The notes beneath the pieces are model-generated. The model did not search any database. It saw only the letters and a program-made list of their open reading frames with translations, and was not told the DNA's origin. From Sphingomicrobium arenosum (GTDB taxonomy: Bacteria > Pseudomonadota > Alphaproteobacteria > Sphingomonadales > Sphingomonadaceae): DNA of 64,000 nucleotides. The DNA is taken from assembly GCF_026157085.1 (NCBI RefSeq), contig NZ_JANPVN010000001.1, forward strand, positions 1,426,001 through 1,490,000, read 5' to 3'. Position 1 is the stretch's first letter. Each line of letters begins with the position of its first letter. Shown one piece after another: positions 4,790-10,994 of this stretch. A program made the translations under genes and the position numbers.

Positions 4790-5527
4790 ATGGCTGATGG
4801 AAGCTCAATCGAATGGACAGATGCAACGTGGAATCCTGTAACGGGTTGCACGAAAATCACGGCTGGCTGCGACAATTGCTATGCCGAGCGCTTCGCCGAA
4901 CGGTGGCGAGGCATTCCGGGCCATCCTTTTGAATTTGGTTTCGACCTAACCCTCCGCCCAGACCGTCTAGACCAACCGCTCCGTTGGAAGCGAAGCCGGA
5001 TGATATTCGTCAATTCCATGAGTGATCTCTTCCATAAGGAAGTGCCGTTCCCATTCGTCGACTCCGTATTCAACACCATGGAGGAAGCGCATTGGCATGT
5101 GTTTCAGGTGCTGACGAAACGCAGCTCCCGGATGCGTGACTACTTGCAAAGGCGTTATGCGGATCGCCAACCTCCCAAGCATATCTGGCTTGGCGTGTCG
5201 GTCGAGGACGCGAGAGGCGCCACACGCATCAAGCACCTGAGCGAAGCTCCGGCCGGCATTCGCTTCCTCTCCGTTGAACCGCTGATCGGGCCAGTCGGGC
5301 CAGTCGATCTCTCGGGCATCCATTGGGTGATTGCCGGCGGGGAGAGCGGCCCGGGAGCGCGCATCCTCAATATCGAGTGGGCTCGCCAGATTCGCGATGA
5401 GTGCGCTCGGCAGGGCGTGGCATTCTTCTTCAAGCAATGGGGCGGAATTCGACCAAAAAGTGGTGGCCGCGAACTTGATGGTCGCGAGTGGAATGAGTTT
5501 CCTTCGAACATGACAGCGTTTGGCTAA
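4790..5527 (+). CDS. DUF5131 (phage Gp37/Gp68-like) three-Cys-motif protein
   Basis: A 245-residue cytoplasmic protein. Its N-terminal signature is WNPVTGCTKITAGCDNCYAE: Cys20-x6-Cys27-x2-Cys30, the family's three-Cys motif, suited to an Fe-S cluster or zinc. Other conserved pieces are the segment around TWNP, VSVED (~140), VEPLIGP (~165) and VIAGGESGPGAR (~180). The Cys pattern and barrel-like segments recall radical SAM enzymes, but the spacing is not CxxxCxxC and the reaction is unknown. Its stop TAA shares its last A with the ATG of tcmP, so the two proteins are made together. Codon use is AT-richer than that of the flanking genes, suggesting transfer. Confidence 0.85.
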   Translation: MADGSSIEWTDATWNPVTGCTKITAGCDNCYAERFAERWRGIPGHPFEFGFDLTLRPDRLDQPLRWKRSRMIFVNSMSDLFHKEVPFPFVDSVFNTMEEAHWHVFQVLTKRSSRMRDYLQRRYADRQPPKHIWLGVSVEDARGATRIKHLSEAPAGIRFLSVEPLIGPVGPVDLSGIHWVIAGGESGPGARILNIEWARQIRDECARQGVAFFFKQWGGIRPKSGGRELDGREWNEFPSNMTAFG

Positions 5528-6687
5528 TGGCGATCGACGTCGCGCATTACGAGGGTCGCGAACAGGCTTTCGTCAAACATACATTCTTGGACAAGTACCT
5601 ACCCGCGCTCATCGGGAAGGTGTGCTCGAGATACGACGAGTTTGTGTATGTCGATGGGTTCGCCGGGCCTTGGAAATCCGCGGCGGGCGAGAACTTCGAC
5701 GATACCTCGTTTGGTATCGCACTCAATCACATGACGAGCCAGCGTCTGCTTTATCTGTCTCGCGGCCGCAATGTGCGAATGCGGGCGTTTCTAGTAGAGA
5801 AAGACCCATCATCATTTGCACAGCTGCAACGAGCGGTAGCTCTCTATCCAAAGATCGAGATCACGCCCCTCAACGGCAAGATGGAAGACCATGTGGCAGC
5901 CATTGTCGCCTCAATTCCTCAGGAATCTTTTTCATTCACGTTGATCGATCCCAAAGGATTTCCGGCGATCGGTTCGATGATGCCGCTTCTGCAGCGTCAG
6001 AATGCCGAAGCCCTCGTCAACTTCATGTTTGATTTCGCAAACCGGTTCGGCGGGACTGACCTTATCCCGGCTTTGGAGGAGTGGCTATCCACGAGCGCAC
6101 CAGATGATTGGCGCAAGCGGATCAAGGCGGTCAGCGGCGAGCAGCGCGAGCGACTCTACGAAGAATTGGCGGTTCAAGCGCTTCGGCAAACGTCAGGCTA
6201 TGTCTATGCGCCCGTCATCACAGTCGACAAGGTTTTGCACAACCGTCCCCTGTACAAACTCATCTTTCTCACACGTCATTCGGAGGGGCTAAAAGTTTTT
6301 CGCGATAGCGAGCGCAGCGCACTTGATGCGCAGGCCATCACGCGATCGGCATCAAAAGCTAAGAAGCGAGAAGCCTGCACACTGATGGGCGATCTGTTTG
6401 CAGATGGTTTTGACGCTGTGCCCAATGACCGCAGCACGCAGGTCATTCGACGCAGCGAGGAGGAGGCATCACGCCGGCTACAAGCGATGCTGACGACTGC
6501 AAACTCCGGCTTCTGTAAGTGGAAGGAATGCTGGCCACCAATACTCGAGGAGCTTTCGGTAACGCATTCGTGGCTCGGCAGGCATGTCAACGATCGTCGA
6601 AAGGCGGGGCAGATTTCAGCCCCAGCTTGGCCAAGCGAAAGAACTCAAATTCCTCGCGATGAGCAGCAGTTAAGATGGAACGGGTGA
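5527..6687 (+). CDS. tcmP: Three-Cys-motif partner protein TcmP
   Basis: A 386-residue protein of the family defined by pairing with three-Cys-motif proteins such as the gene before it. The N-terminal half looks like a Rossmann methyltransferase: motif-I-like VDGFAGP (42-48), an acidic loop LVEKDP (89-94), and motif-IV-like LIDPKGFP (139-146), followed by NFMFDFANRF (165-174). The C-terminal half is charged and of unknown fold. Homologues are scattered among bacteria, often in variable islands; a defence or nucleic-acid modification role is inference. Coupled to the DUF5131 gene by a 1-nt overlap. Base composition is lower in G+C than the neighbours. Confidence 0.85.
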   Translation: MAIDVAHYEGREQAFVKHTFLDKYLPALIGKVCSRYDEFVYVDGFAGPWKSAAGENFDDTSFGIALNHMTSQRLLYLSRGRNVRMRAFLVEKDPSSFAQLQRAVALYPKIEITPLNGKMEDHVAAIVASIPQESFSFTLIDPKGFPAIGSMMPLLQRQNAEALVNFMFDFANRFGGTDLIPALEEWLSTSAPDDWRKRIKAVSGEQRERLYEELAVQALRQTSGYVYAPVITVDKVLHNRPLYKLIFLTRHSEGLKVFRDSERSALDAQAITRSASKAKKREACTLMGDLFADGFDAVPNDRSTQVIRRSEEEASRRLQAMLTTANSGFCKWKECWPPILEELSVTHSWLGRHVNDRRKAGQISAPAWPSERTQIPRDEQQLRWNG

Positions 6688-6697
6688 TTCAAGCTGG

Positions 6698-6797
6698 CGC
6701 TTAGCTGACCGGCAGTTCACAGGTTCTACCGCGTGCGTTCTGAATGACCGGACTGGGGCGCTAAGCGGACATCAATTTCGTCTCCGGACATAAATTT
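6698..6797. repeat. Short repeats resembling mobile-element debris
   Basis: The 178-bp gap after tcmP (6688-6865) holds an inverted repeat CGCTTAGC (6698-6705) / GCTAAGCG (6760-6767) and two near-identical direct repeats ggacatcaattt (6767-6778) and ggacataaattt (6786-6797) spaced 19 bp. Multiple short direct repeats of this kind occur at the ends of some insertion sequences. No transposase remnant is visible, so the assignment is tentative. Confidence 0.35.
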
Positions 6798-6865
6798 CCC
6801 AATGATTTGAGTGCCCATCTTTGTTACGCCGGGCGCACCACCGAGGGGCAAGAGGGGGAAGAGTG

Positions 6866-7921
6866 ATGAACAGGCCATCCGACAGCGCGCCGACCGGCGC
6901 CAATGCGCAGATCCCCGCGGCGCTCGTCCGGGCGGGGCGTCTCGAACAGGCCGGCAAGACGCAGCAGGCCGTACAGCTTTATCGCAAGATCGCTGCCCAG
7001 CCGCGGCTCACCTTACCGCATTGCCGCCAGATCATCGCCGGGCTGGTGCGTTGCGGCGAGACGTCACTCGCCGGGCAGATCAACCGCAGGCTGGTCGAGA
7101 TTCGTGCCGCCAAGCTGCCCGATACGATCGAAGCGGCGCTTGAGCGCGTGTGGGAGGATATCGACGCCGACGCGCTCGACCAGGCGGTGGTCGACTGGGC
7201 CTGGTCCAATCGAGACCCCGAGTTCAAGGGTAACCGCGAAGAATTCGAACGTCGGGCCAAATGGGGCATCCGGGCCGAACGCGTGTTGCTCGATTGGCTC
7301 GAATGTCGGCCCGACGACGATAGCGCGAAAAGCCTCTTTATCGATGGCGATGCGTCCGCGCAGCAATATTCGGCGATCGGCGCCCATTGCCGCGCCGCCG
7401 CCCATGTCGGGCCAATCTTCGCAGGACCGCTTCTCTACGAACTATACGACATCGACGTCAAATATATCGGCTCGTTCCCGGCGCTGCCGGGGAGCGTCCT
7501 GTCGCGCCGCCTGATCAGCACCAGCACCAACGACAAGCAGAGCGTTCGCCGGATGGCCGAAGATGTGGTGCGCGATGGCAGCGTGCTTGTCATGGCGGCC
7601 GATGGCAATAGCGGAGGGCCGCCGCTCGAGGATGCCAGCGAGGAAGAGCTGGCGCTGCGCATCTCGCCGCTCATCCCGCGCCTCGTGCATCGCCATGGGG
7701 TGACCTCGTCCTATGGCATGGCGCAATGGGTCGACTGCAAGAAAATCCAACTGAGCGTGACGGCGCTGCCCCAGCCCGAAGACGGTGAAAGCGAAGAGGG
7801 TTTCATCGCGCGCTGGCGGCAGGCCTATCGCGACCATGCCCTCGCCCAGACCAAGGCGGCGCCGGAGAATTTGCGGCTTCACCGGGGTCTCTGGCGCGAT
7901 ATCGCCCCGGCCAAGGCTTGA
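6866..7921 (+). CDS. Hypothetical protein, possible acyltransferase-like fold
   Basis: A 351-residue protein that I do not recognise with certainty. The N-terminus (about 1-65) is helical, with a TPR-like pattern (ALVRAGRLEQAGKTQQAVQLY). The rest has weak hints of the LpxL/LPLAT layout: a His followed by Gly (AHVGPIF), an 'LISTSTND...RRMAEDVVRDGSVLVMAADG' type block with a late Asp, and a C-terminal SVTALPQP strand, but the catalytic HxxxxD/E is not evident. The start at 6866 follows agggggaagag; a GTG three bases earlier is also possible. It ends 20 bp from the convergent blh gene. Confidence 0.55.
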   Translation: MNRPSDSAPTGANAQIPAALVRAGRLEQAGKTQQAVQLYRKIAAQPRLTLPHCRQIIAGLVRCGETSLAGQINRRLVEIRAAKLPDTIEAALERVWEDIDADALDQAVVDWAWSNRDPEFKGNREEFERRAKWGIRAERVLLDWLECRPDDDSAKSLFIDGDASAQQYSAIGAHCRAAAHVGPIFAGPLLYELYDIDVKYIGSFPALPGSVLSRRLISTSTNDKQSVRRMAEDVVRDGSVLVMAADGNSGGPPLEDASEEELALRISPLIPRLVHRHGVTSSYGMAQWVDCKKIQLSVTALPQPEDGESEEGFIARWRQAYRDHALAQTKAAPENLRLHRGLWRDIAPAKA

Positions 7922-7941: not shown

Positions 7942-8733
7942 TCAGGCGGCGGCGATGGCGCCCTGCCCCGTCCCCCAGCTGCGGTCGAGCAGCATGTGCG
8001 GGATCAGCGCGGCAAGCGCGAGGGCGGTGAAGACGAGCGGTGGGACAGCGCCCGACAGCACGGCGGCGACGAGAAGGGCAGCGCCAGCGAGCGCGGCAAG
8101 ACCGAAAGGGAGGATCGCGGCGGCGGCGCGATGACGCCCCAGCCGCGCCACCAGTTCCTCGATCCGCACGAGCGCGTGCAGCATGGTGAAATGCAAGGCG
8201 ATGGCGAGAAGCGGGTCGAGCAGCGCATAGGCCGCGAGGAGGAGGAGCGCGCGAAGGCGATGCCCGCCGAGCACGAGCATGGCGGGACCTGCAAGGCCGA
8301 TGAGCGCGAGGGGCATGGCCAACGGCGCGGCCCCGTCCACGCCCATCCATTCGAGGATCGCGTGGGTCGAGACCGGGCGCAAGAGAAACACGCCGCCGAT
8401 CAGCATCAACCCCTCGCCCCATGCGGCGGCGAGCGACACGCCGCGCTGGCGGTTCTCATGCGCGAAATGCCATGCCGACAGGGCGAAGAACAGCATCAGC
8501 CCGTTGACGGGCGCAGCAATGAAATAGGCCGCGGCGCAGCCGATGAGCGCGAGATAGACGAGGCTGTAACCAAGGCCCGGTCGAACCAGCCGTTCGGCCT
8601 CGGCATCGATCGCGCCATGAAAGACGCCGACCGCCAGCAGGGCCCCGGCCAGCAGGAGCGACGGGACGCCCAGCCCCGCCAGGATCGCGGCGGCGATCCC
8701 GACGAGGCCGAAGCGTACCTCCGCGCGGGTCAC
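7942..8733 (-). CDS. blh: Beta-carotene 15,15'-dioxygenase, Brp/Blh family
   Basis: Cleaves beta-carotene to two molecules of retinal, the chromophore of the rhodopsin encoded just upstream. The 263-residue protein is almost all membrane helices and keeps the iron-ligand motifs of the family: GVFHGAIDAEA (His39, Asp43), SAWHFAHE (His89, His92), HFTMLHALVRI and IPHMLLDR near the C-terminus. It starts with GTG overlapping the rhodopsin stop (GTGA), so the two are translationally coupled. No carotenoid synthesis genes are in the window, so beta-carotene must come from elsewhere in the genome. Confidence 0.9.
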   Translation of the reverse strand: MTRAEVRFGLVGIAAAILAGLGVPSLLLAGALLAVGVFHGAIDAEAERLVRPGLGYSLVYLALIGCAAAYFIAAPVNGLMLFFALSAWHFAHENRQRGVSLAAAWGEGLMLIGGVFLLRPVSTHAILEWMGVDGAAPLAMPLALIGLAGPAMLVLGGHRLRALLLLAAYALLDPLLAIALHFTMLHALVRIEELVARLGRHRAAAAILPFGLAALAGAALLVAAVLSGAVPPLVFTALALAALIPHMLLDRSWGTGQGAIAAA

Positions 8734-9578
8734 GCGCCACGCGGCTTGTCGGCAACCGCAGGCGCCTCGCCCAGCGCCTCGGCGGCGGGCAGATAGCCTC
8801 CAAGCGCGCTACGACGCAGAAGATAGCGCGACAGGATGACGCCATAGACCAGCTTGGTCGACAAATCGGCGATGCTGAACAGCAACTGGCGTGCGATCAC
8901 CACTTCGCCGTTGAAGCCCAGTTGGGGCAGCGCATAGGCGATGGGGTAGAGGCCCCAGGTGGCAAGGAAATACCACCACAGCTTGTCGGGAAAGCCCTTC
9001 AACGGCGCAGGCGAATTGACGACCCCCGCCTTGATCGTGGCGCGCACCTCGATCAGCAGCCACACGAAGAAGAGGGTCGAGATGACGCCCCACAGGTTGA
9101 GCTGCGCCCAGTCGCCGGTTTCGCCGAACTGGCCTACCAACCCGGTCCAGATCATCAGCACGGCGGGAATGCTCATGCGGATGGCGCGGCGACGGATTTC
9201 CGGACGTGCCAATCCGAAAGCGAGCGGCAATTGGGTCAGCAGCAGCGGCACCGTGATGGTCCAGTTGCCGTAGCGGAAGGCGTTGGTGAAGGTCTGTCCC
9301 TCGGTCGCGGGCACGTATGCGCCGCCGGAGAAGGTATAGGCCTCGTTCCAGAAACTGAATTCGCGCAGCAGGCTGAGACCCGCCGACGCCATGACCAGCG
9401 CGGAGAGCAACGGCACCAGCCGATAGCGGGGCGCGAGGTCCTTTTGCGTCCAGAGGAAATAGAGGATGAAGGCGAAATGCGCACCGTAGCTGACCATCAG
9501 GATCAGCGATCCCAAGGTGAACTGCGTGTCGCTTAACGTGACCAGATTTTCGATGTTCGCGAAGACCGAGGGGTCCAT
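8730..9578 (-). CDS. Microbial rhodopsin with NTQ motif, probable light-driven chloride pump
   Basis: A seven-helix retinal protein of 282 residues. Helix C reads FRYGNWTITVPLLLTQ (101-116): Arg102 is conserved and the three pump-defining positions are Asn105, Thr109 and Gln116 (NTQ), the pattern of bacterial inward Cl- pumps (Nonlabens ClR, Fulvimarina rhodopsin), not the DTE of proton pumps or NDQ of sodium pumps. Retinal forms its Schiff base with Lys242 in ADLSTK; Asp238 is the remaining counterion. Gly164 in LWGVIST of helix E could leave the side opening that carotenoid antennae use; that is inference. A GGAGGAG site precedes the ATG. Coupled to blh. Confidence 0.93.
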   Translation of the reverse strand: MDPSVFANIENLVTLSDTQFTLGSLILMVSYGAHFAFILYFLWTQKDLAPRYRLVPLLSALVMASAGLSLLREFSFWNEAYTFSGGAYVPATEGQTFTNAFRYGNWTITVPLLLTQLPLAFGLARPEIRRRAIRMSIPAVLMIWTGLVGQFGETGDWAQLNLWGVISTLFFVWLLIEVRATIKAGVVNSPAPLKGFPDKLWWYFLATWGLYPIAYALPQLGFNGEVVIARQLLFSIADLSTKLVYGVILSRYLLRRSALGGYLPAAEALGEAPAVADKPRGA

Positions 9579-9642
9579 ACAGATACTCCTCCACCCGGGC
9601 GTATCGTCGTGATGCGGCCGGACGAGCCCCCTGTTTGCTCGG

Positions 9643-9668
9643 GGAACTCAAGACGCGAGGCTGCCGTT
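9643..9668 (+). promoter_or_regulatory. Putative EcfG-type general stress promoter
   Basis: GGAAC (9643-9647), 17 bases, then CGTT (9665-9668): the alphaproteobacterial general-stress-response sigma factor pattern GGAAC-N16/17-cGTT. It sits 22 bp upstream of the GTG at 9690 and reads towards the DUF2254 gene. It lies in the gap divergent from the rhodopsin operon. Confidence 0.55.
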
Positions 9669-9689
9669 CGGTTCCCCGTGAGGCAGCGA

Positions 9690-10994
9690 GTGACCAGCGA
9701 CGAACCCAAGAACCTCGGCGGGCTCGTCGCGTCGGTGGTGCGTGCCTGGAAGAGCTTCTGGGCCCTGCCTGCGCTCATCATTCTTGTCGCCATCGGCGTG
9801 ATGTTCGCGCTCACCGCAGTGGACGGCAGCGGGTGGTCGCGATGGTTGTGGGCGCAGGGCGTCGTGCTCGTCGAGACGAGCGATGGCTATCGTGAGGCGG
9901 TGTCGGTGATGACCGGCGTCAATGTCGCCTTCACCACGCTCTATTTCTCGATCACGCTCCTTGTGCTCACGCTCGCGGCGAGCAACCTCGGGGTGCGGCT
10001 CATCGATCGCTGGATCGCCCGGACCTTCGTGCGCGCCACGCTGGGCCTGCTGCTGGCCGCGACCGCCGCCAGCCTGTTGCTCCTCATGCTGTTCGATGGC
10101 GAGGGCGATGGCGCGAGCCTGCCGCATGCCAGCCTCTTGTTCCTGTCGCTGCTGATGCTGGTCGAACTGGTGTGGCTGGCGGTGGCGCTCAACGACCTCG
10201 GGCGCGCGATCTTCGTCGATACCGCAATCGGCAAAATCGGGCGCGACAGTTGCGCGGTCGGCAATGGCGCGTTGCGCGCGGTCCTCGCCCCCGACTGGCC
10301 CCGCGCGACGCCCATCCGCTCGGTCCGAGATGCCTATATCGTCACAACCGATATCGAGCGCCTCTCGCGGCTCGCCGCACGGTGGGACAGTGAATTCCGC
10401 ATCGACCGCGCCGCAGGGGACCGGGTGATGGACGGCGAGCCCATTCTTTTCAGCCGCGAACCGCTGTCGCAGGAGCAGACCGACGAGGTGCGCGACTGCT
10501 TCACCTTTGCCGCCACGCGGTCGGACCAGGAAGGGCTGAGCTATCGCATCCGCCTGCTGGTCGAGATCGCCGCGCGGGCGCTGTCGCCCGCCGTCAACGA
10601 TTTCTACACCGCGCGCGCGTGCGTCGATGAACTGGCGACCATCATGCTGCATCACCGCGAACGGCTCACCCCGCCCGGCCATATCCTGATGGAGGTGGAG
10701 CGCGTCTATTGTCCGACCGCCTCGTTCGACCGATTGTTCGACAAGCCCGTGGCGGCGCTGCGACAGGGCGCGGCGCCCTATCCCGCGATCGTCATTCGCC
10801 TAATCGAGCGGCTCGGGGTCGCGTCGCGCTGTGCCGACAGCGCCGACTTCACCGGGCGTCTTCGCGAGTATGCGGCAGCGGCGCGGCAGCATGGCCTCGA
10901 CAGAGCCGAGACCGACATCGATCGCGAGGACATCGAACGCGCCTTCGCTACCGCTTTTGGTCCGGGGGCATCGTCGGGACAGGTCGCCGGCTGA
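9690..10994 (+). CDS. DUF2254 family membrane protein
   Basis: A 434-residue predicted inner-membrane protein. The N-terminal half has four hydrophobic helices (about residues 15-35, 65-90, 110-130 and 140-160); the C-terminal half is soluble and alpha/beta. DUF2254 has no known reaction. The GTG at 9690 was chosen over GTG/ATG at 9609/9612 because gaggcag lies upstream, the codons between 9609 and 9690 are unlike the rest of the gene, and the predicted stress promoter (9643-9668) would otherwise lie inside the coding region. It is transcribed away from the rhodopsin operon. Confidence 0.8.
   Translation: MTSDEPKNLGGLVASVVRAWKSFWALPALIILVAIGVMFALTAVDGSGWSRWLWAQGVVLVETSDGYREAVSVMTGVNVAFTTLYFSITLLVLTLAASNLGVRLIDRWIARTFVRATLGLLLAATAASLLLLMLFDGEGDGASLPHASLLFLSLLMLVELVWLAVALNDLGRAIFVDTAIGKIGRDSCAVGNGALRAVLAPDWPRATPIRSVRDAYIVTTDIERLSRLAARWDSEFRIDRAAGDRVMDGEPILFSREPLSQEQTDEVRDCFTFAATRSDQEGLSYRIRLLVEIAARALSPAVNDFYTARACVDELATIMLHHRERLTPPGHILMEVERVYCPTASFDRLFDKPVAALRQGAAPYPAIVIRLIERLGVASRCADSADFTGRLREYAAAARQHGLDRAETDIDREDIERAFATAFGPGASSGQVAG

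Follow-up and report, generated by a model that had tools for sequence, protein, structure and literature searches.

The question raised by this locus is what a cell would gain from importing chloride in the light when the importer is its only rhodopsin. The window (the whole stretch of 64,000 nucleotides analysed here, from Sphingomicrobium arenosum) carries on its minus strand a gene for a rhodopsin of 282 amino acids (positions 8730-9578; PF01036 match at 7.2e-32) and, directly behind it, a blh-like gene with a GTG start (7942-8733, minus strand; 263 amino acids, PF15461 match). As the original prediction had stated, the two are joined by a GTGA overlap (8730-8733, minus strand), the rhodopsin stop TGA overlapping the GTG start of the second ORF. 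A gene for a DUF2254 membrane protein (9690-10994, plus strand; PF10011 match) diverges from the rhodopsin gene, and this neighbour is a point beyond the original prediction. Judged from its sequence, the rhodopsin is most likely an NTQ (ClR)-type light-driven inward chloride pump within a set of genes largely kept together in Sphingomonadaceae, a set that would consist of the NTQ rhodopsin, an often divergent Blh directly behind it and the divergently transcribed DUF2254 gene.

The residues expected of an NTQ rhodopsin were claimed at the outset and are observed in the ORF: Asn105 (codon 9264-9266), Thr109 (9252-9254) and Gln116 (9231-9233) make up the helix C triad, accompanied by the retinal lysine Lys242 (8853-8855; all codons on the minus strand). 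Arg102 and Asp238 are present as well. The proposed chloride-pump type likewise finds support in this triad and in the best solved match, the chloride pump of Nonlabens marinus (NM-R3/ClR; PDB 5g28, 6ab9 and others; E 4.8e-53, 38% identity), which has the same triad, equivalents of the other three residues in Arg95, Asp231 and Lys235, and an Asn92 that corresponds to N99 here. In the N. marinus pump, as described in PMC4999514, the chloride near the Schiff base is bound by Asn98 and Thr102, a second chloride is held by Ala44-Pro45-Lys46 of the AB loop, and Asn98, Thr102 and Asn92 matter for pumping; N105 and T109 are the counterparts of the first two here. The second site is kept in the window rhodopsin as A49-P50-R51, with Pro-Arg in place of Pro-Lys, and the 3-omega aromatics F15/W72/Y83 are matched by F20/W77/Y88. 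The two proteins differ near the Schiff base and the cytoplasmic cavity, where Ile64, Ala50 and Thr228 of the N. marinus pump are replaced by Ser69 (codon 9372-9374, minus strand), Val55 and Ser235. Three listings of protein homologues were used, each giving 120 matches (of 266, of 264 and of 353); the residue survey combined the 120 listed of 266 homologues with 41 locus rows, that is 161 rows and 147 distinct sequences. Each of the 147, all of them Sphingomonadales NTQ rhodopsins, keeps N99, R102, N105, T109, Q116, D238, K242 and the AB-loop Pro50-Arg51. In helix B, position 69 holds Ser in 141 of these sequences, Thr in four and Asn in two. In the N. marinus-like group it is Ile (115/115 rows, two of them carrying Glu as the third triad residue), and in DTE rows it is His (44/44). 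The related sodium pump ErNaR of Erythrobacter (PDB 8qle), also from Sphingomonadales and of the NDQ type, has Glu64 at this position, which is described as aimed at the Schiff base (PMC11006869); by analogy, Ser69 could therefore be an extra chloride ligand in the Sphingomonadales NTQ clade.

Pumping, the ion and its direction are what we infer, along the following lines. Retinal bound to Lys242 would give a protonated Schiff base whose usual Asp counterion is replaced by Asn105, so that the negative charge would come from a chloride held next to it by Asn105 and Thr109. Photoisomerisation would then drive the chloride past Gln116 into the cytoplasm and so render the cell interior more negative. 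The retinal would come from the Blh homologue, whose metal site may be altered, and the DUF2254 protein may act in the same process, most simply in anion, osmotic or membrane-potential balance, both roles being guessed from gene linkage.

The statement that no proton pump lies beside the rhodopsin can be extended to the entire genome (2.56 Mb in three contigs, 100% complete), in which a whole-genome search gave a single PF01036 match and thus no second rhodopsin; a whole-genome search for the PF00124 reaction centre found none. Both crtY and crtI, for which a genome search had been suggested, were detected; they adjoin at C1:97163-99762, with the phytoene synthase gene crtB alongside. The crtI match is indicated with one internal TGA, but the covering ORF is open for 562 codons with its stop at the end of the match, so that the gene looks intact. 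With crtB, crtI and crtY present, synthesis of beta-carotene is plausible from the gene content. The genome holds one PF15461 match, the blh-like gene of the window, and no PF03055 carotenoid oxygenase was found in it; the blh-like gene is the only candidate of a known type for retinal synthesis in this genome. In Gly164 the rhodopsin also keeps the counterpart of Gly178 in Gloeobacter rhodopsin, which we take to be the opening for a carotenoid antenna; by this analogy, such an antenna is possible on the window rhodopsin.

How unusual this arrangement is can be judged from the family. Among 397 sampled Sphingomonadaceae genomes, 58 have a PF01036 match and 24 carry an NTQ rhodopsin, which does not bear out the idea that the type is confined to a few alphaproteobacteria. 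In a sample of 385 genomes of the class, none outside the family showed it: 30 matched the window rhodopsin, all at no more than 32% identity except the window's own. In the genus, NTQ rhodopsins occur in 3 of 71 genomes, and the nearest named homologue among the matches listed is that of Sphingomicrobium flavum (81%). The locus table holds 73 rhodopsin loci from 57 genomes (56 with a full-length PF01036 match, plus G413); partial matches were left out, namely G010, G109 and a weak second match in each of G137 and G192. It comprises 29 NTQ loci in 25 genomes, one NDQ locus and 43 others, mostly DTE with some DTG, the motif having been read in all but L019, L021, L022, L028, L029, L034 and L078. 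The classes are widely separated with the window rhodopsin as query, NTQ loci scoring at least 377 bits and the others at most 125, with no match at 1e-4 for L019-L022, L028, L029, L034 and L078. Four genomes (G337, G314, G377 and G100) have two NTQ rhodopsins each, in different places, of which one adjoins a blh and the other does not. An origin of the rhodopsin from plasmids was considered and dropped, the four plasmid records that matched being all below 60% identity.

In 16 of the 25 NTQ genomes no rhodopsin other than the NTQ protein was found (in G413, others were sought by protein search only, without a Pfam search), so that a chloride-pump type as sole rhodopsin is frequent in Sphingomonadaceae; nine of these 16 also have no PF00124 match, which is present in 8 of the 25. 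Such solitude, together with a Ser69 in place of the Ile of the characterised pump, would also suit a light sensor, or a pump for some other anion, rather than chloride import for energy or turgor. We regard this as very unlikely: the pump residues are invariant in the 147 distinct sequences among those listed, and no transducer gene was seen among the eight neighbouring proteins scanned, two of which have no Pfam match. The chloride-pump reading also places the protein in known company. The Sphingomonadales proteins CbClR and CsClR (Citromicrobium) and SpClR (Sphingopyxis baekryungensis), which share the NTQ motif with the window rhodopsin as far as their descriptions go, are listed as putative chloride pumps (PMC4585134, PMC5118547), a peak at 518 nm is given for the S. 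baekryungensis protein (PMC7979833), and chloride- and sodium-pump rhodopsin sequences related to Erythrobacter are described from the North Pacific (PMC5864233). The alphaproteobacterial NTQ rhodopsin FR of Fulvimarina pelagi is comparable by its description, which includes a chloride-dependent colour (PMC4585134). In our own set, the Citromicrobium MAG locus L013 has a rhodopsin of the same clade as that of the window, with blh and DUF2254 in the same layout. Chloride-pump-type rhodopsins of Sphingomonadales are thus already in print, and that of the window is a further member; a literature search for Sphingomicrobium together with rhodopsin found no paper.

Whether this group shares its motif with the N. 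marinus pump by descent is a separate matter. The NTQ rows from Sphingomonadales group in a single clade (56 rows, support 100; 19 rows, 100/99 in a second tree). In two trees, the Bacteroidota-type (N. marinus-like) NTQ group was placed with NDQ pumps, apart from this clade (SH-aLRT 93; 84/98 and 93/93), which pointed to an NTQ motif that had evolved twice, the Sphingomonadales protein being a convergent anion pump outside the N. marinus ClR clade. Further tests took this support away. A tree with all NTQ sequences in one clade outscored the free search of the second tree (p-AU 0.77), and upon removal of the three motif columns, in a set from which L113 was dropped and to which DTE rows were added, the free tree itself united both NTQ groups (p-AU 0.54). 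A separately searched one-clade tree ranked below that free tree (p-AU 0.38), and a tree with the Sphingomonadales NTQ rows outside was likewise acceptable (p-AU 0.51). An independent origin, in trees built without the NTQ sequences of Fulvimarina pelagi and Parvularcula, is therefore no longer proposed as a finding and stays a possibility on the doubtful side.

As to retinal supply, the description of the second gene as the rhodopsin's own retinal synthase holds for the linkage of a PF15461 gene, and needs qualifying for the protein itself, which is a divergent Blh with Arg190 (codon 8164-8166, minus strand) in place of a His that is essential in a characterised Blh, at a position that varies in other Sphingomonad Blh too. 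The pair is not a chance arrangement, because two further genomes of the genus (G332 and G413) have an NTQ rhodopsin of 81% identity followed by a blh-like ORF. The window protein scores 65 bits with PF15461 (cut-off 28) and 71 bits with the NCBI curated model TIGR03753, below the cut-off of 95.25; in the TIGR03753 scan, all six NTQ-type Blh fell short of this value (57-93 bits), while both DTE-linked ones exceeded it. It keeps H39, H89 and H186, three of the four essential histidines of the Brp/Blh family member from the uncultured marine bacterium 66A03, whose His192 corresponds to Arg190 here; His188 and His192 of that enzyme were equated with the HxxxH of DTE-linked Blh rather than aligned through the 66A03 sequence. 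Replacement of His21, His78, His188 or His192 by Ala is described as leaving less than 5% of the activity of Blh 66A03 (PMC9227343).

The same departure is found across the NTQ loci. Among 36 rows of NTQ-linked Blh, 30 of them distinct, H39, H89 and H186 are present in 30/30 and H246 in 29/30, and the fourth position is Val in 17, Ile in six, Arg in three, Met in two, Leu in one and Glu in one, His in none; a Gln follows one position later in 26 of the 30. Two NTQ-type Blh sited away from the rhodopsin (G019 and G105) also appear by eye to have no fourth His. A first comparison, in which 12 DTE-linked Blh, the 12 best-scoring PF15461 matches, had His in 12/12, suggested a loss peculiar to NTQ-linked Blh, an idea that was given up upon a wider control: of the 34 distinct Blh found next to other rhodopsins, 24 carry His at the fourth position, nine carry Gln and one has a gap (HSPRH by eye). 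The HxxxQ form is seen beside DTE and other rhodopsins, for instance at L030, L031, L079, L087, L093, L094, L028, L029 and L034. Given such variation, loss of the His does not prove an inactive enzyme.

We thus consider it probable that the linked Blh makes retinal in the ordinary way, its fourth metal His swapped for another ligand or dispensable, and that the operon simply couples a pump to its chromophore enzyme. The overlap of the blh start with the rhodopsin stop, the conserved histidines, the variation at other rhodopsins, the host genome with neither a second PF15461 gene nor a PF03055 one, and the occurrence of PF15461 in 20 of the 25 NTQ genomes all argue in this direction. Against it stand the TIGR03753 scores, the low activity left in the His192-to-Ala form of Blh 66A03 and a fourth position that is neither His nor Gln in any of the 30 distinct NTQ-linked copies. 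No PF15461 match was found in the NTQ genomes G006, G162, G211, G249 and G358, and in the first three of these no PF03055 match either; a precedent for retinal made without known genes is described in PMC7734400. The range of residues seen at the fourth metal position (His, Gln or neither) makes these Blh proteins a natural series for the requirements of the retinal enzyme.

The DUF2254 gene is the more distinctive neighbour. Its ORF is already open from a GTG at 9609; as the alignment of relatives begins at about residue 30, the GTG at 9690 is the likelier start, and this probable start would leave 111 bp (9579-9689) between the divergent genes. The protein matches PF10011 with 210 bits (cut-off 28.8). 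PF10011 was searched in 58 genomes, with the short-contig locus L010 excluded from the counts. A DUF2254 gene adjoins 26 of the 29 NTQ loci (the exceptions being G051, G019 and G337-C2) and is divergent in all 26, with a domain gap of 158-393 bp; within 5 kb of the other rhodopsin loci it was found at none of 43 and not at the single NDQ locus, some of these controls lying on short contigs, which weakens the contrast but does not explain it. None turned up either when 49 non-NTQ rhodopsin loci were scanned separately, for the most part with flanks of 1.5-2 kb. Two types can be told apart, about 20% identical to each other. The short type (163-211 bits) adjoins NTQ-blh pairs and is present in 18 of 25 NTQ genomes and in one of the 32 remaining genomes with a rhodopsin (Fisher p 2e-8, a value that ignores descent). 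The classic type (286-387 bits) occurs alone at ten NTQ loci whose rhodopsin gene has no adjacent blh, or in tandem behind the short type (nine loci). With ten of the 29 loci having the classic type without an adjacent blh, and three others having no DUF2254, the three-gene set is not universal.

Part of this association is a matter of descent. When surroundings are defined by outer genes shared within about 6 kb (at least 45% identity over 120 residues), six can be told apart among the 29 NTQ loci, with 20, 3, 2, 2, 1 and 1 loci; since 20 of them lie in one neighbourhood, the loci are not independent and much of the count is inherited order. That DUF2254 stands beside the rhodopsin wholly as a relic of an ancestral neighbourhood, with no shared function, is accordingly a serious possibility, if somewhat short of probable. 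It is favoured by the shared neighbourhood, by further DUF2254 copies sited away from any rhodopsin, and by the genome G373, whose right flank matches that of the window (aldehyde dehydrogenase 89%, up to 98% further on) and which has a DUF2254 gene (51% identity) in the same place. No rhodopsin was found in the G373 genome, and the 19 kb read there show no remnant of either rhodopsin or blh; this pattern reflects either loss there or gain elsewhere. On the other hand, DUF2254 accompanies the NTQ rhodopsin in five of the six surroundings (19/20, 3/3, 1/2, 2/2, 0/1 for G051, and 1/1), which have no common outer gene at 45% identity or more, so that the two genes appear to have moved together more than once. 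The constant divergent orientation, the occupation of the same place by two such dissimilar types and the absence of DUF2254 within 5 kb of the 44 other rhodopsin loci in the same family sample also speak against order alone.

At the far end of the readings, the NTQ rhodopsin, the divergent Blh and DUF2254 might constitute one undescribed light-driven anion module, in which Blh, its metal site changed, would make or deliver retinal. DUF2254 would be a cognate membrane partner, for example a channel or a regulator drawing on or restraining the chloride gradient or membrane potential that light builds up. We put this forward only tentatively and think it rather unlikely as a whole, since Blh beside other rhodopsins can lack the fourth histidine too, which weakens the module and strengthens the case for an ordinary synthase. 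For DUF2254, a search by sequence gave no solved homologue and Foldseek no match at E of 0.001 or below; the DUF2254 papers found in PMC do not mention rhodopsin, and no description of the pairing was found in the open-licence literature, searched mostly under subjects other than DUF2254. The conserved divergent position of this gene is the main reason to study the locus further, with the divergent Blh a lesser one: the link to NTQ rhodopsins is a functional lead for a membrane protein family of unknown function, and a partner at 26 of 29 loci provides a handle on what the cell gains from a chloride importer as its sole rhodopsin.

To the left of blh, the window has on its plus strand (4790-7921) a DUF5131 gene and then two ORFs without a Pfam match (386 and 366 amino acids). 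No counterpart of the three was seen in the regions read from G332, G413 and G373, and they are possibly a mobile insertion.

The region between the divergent genes contains the sequence GGAAC-N17-CGTT (9643-9668, plus strand, towards DUF2254), which we take to resemble the alphaproteobacterial general-stress (EcfG) promoter consensus and which is weak evidence for such a promoter. Sites of this kind are present at 2 of the 29 NTQ loci, those of the window and G332; with a background rate of 0.022 per 320-bp stretch, this is no family-wide signal, and a promoter motif shared by rhodopsin and DUF2254 was rejected. A search for dyads and 8-mers turned up CAACCAAA or the complementary 8-mer in 10 of the 26 rhodopsin upstream regions given.
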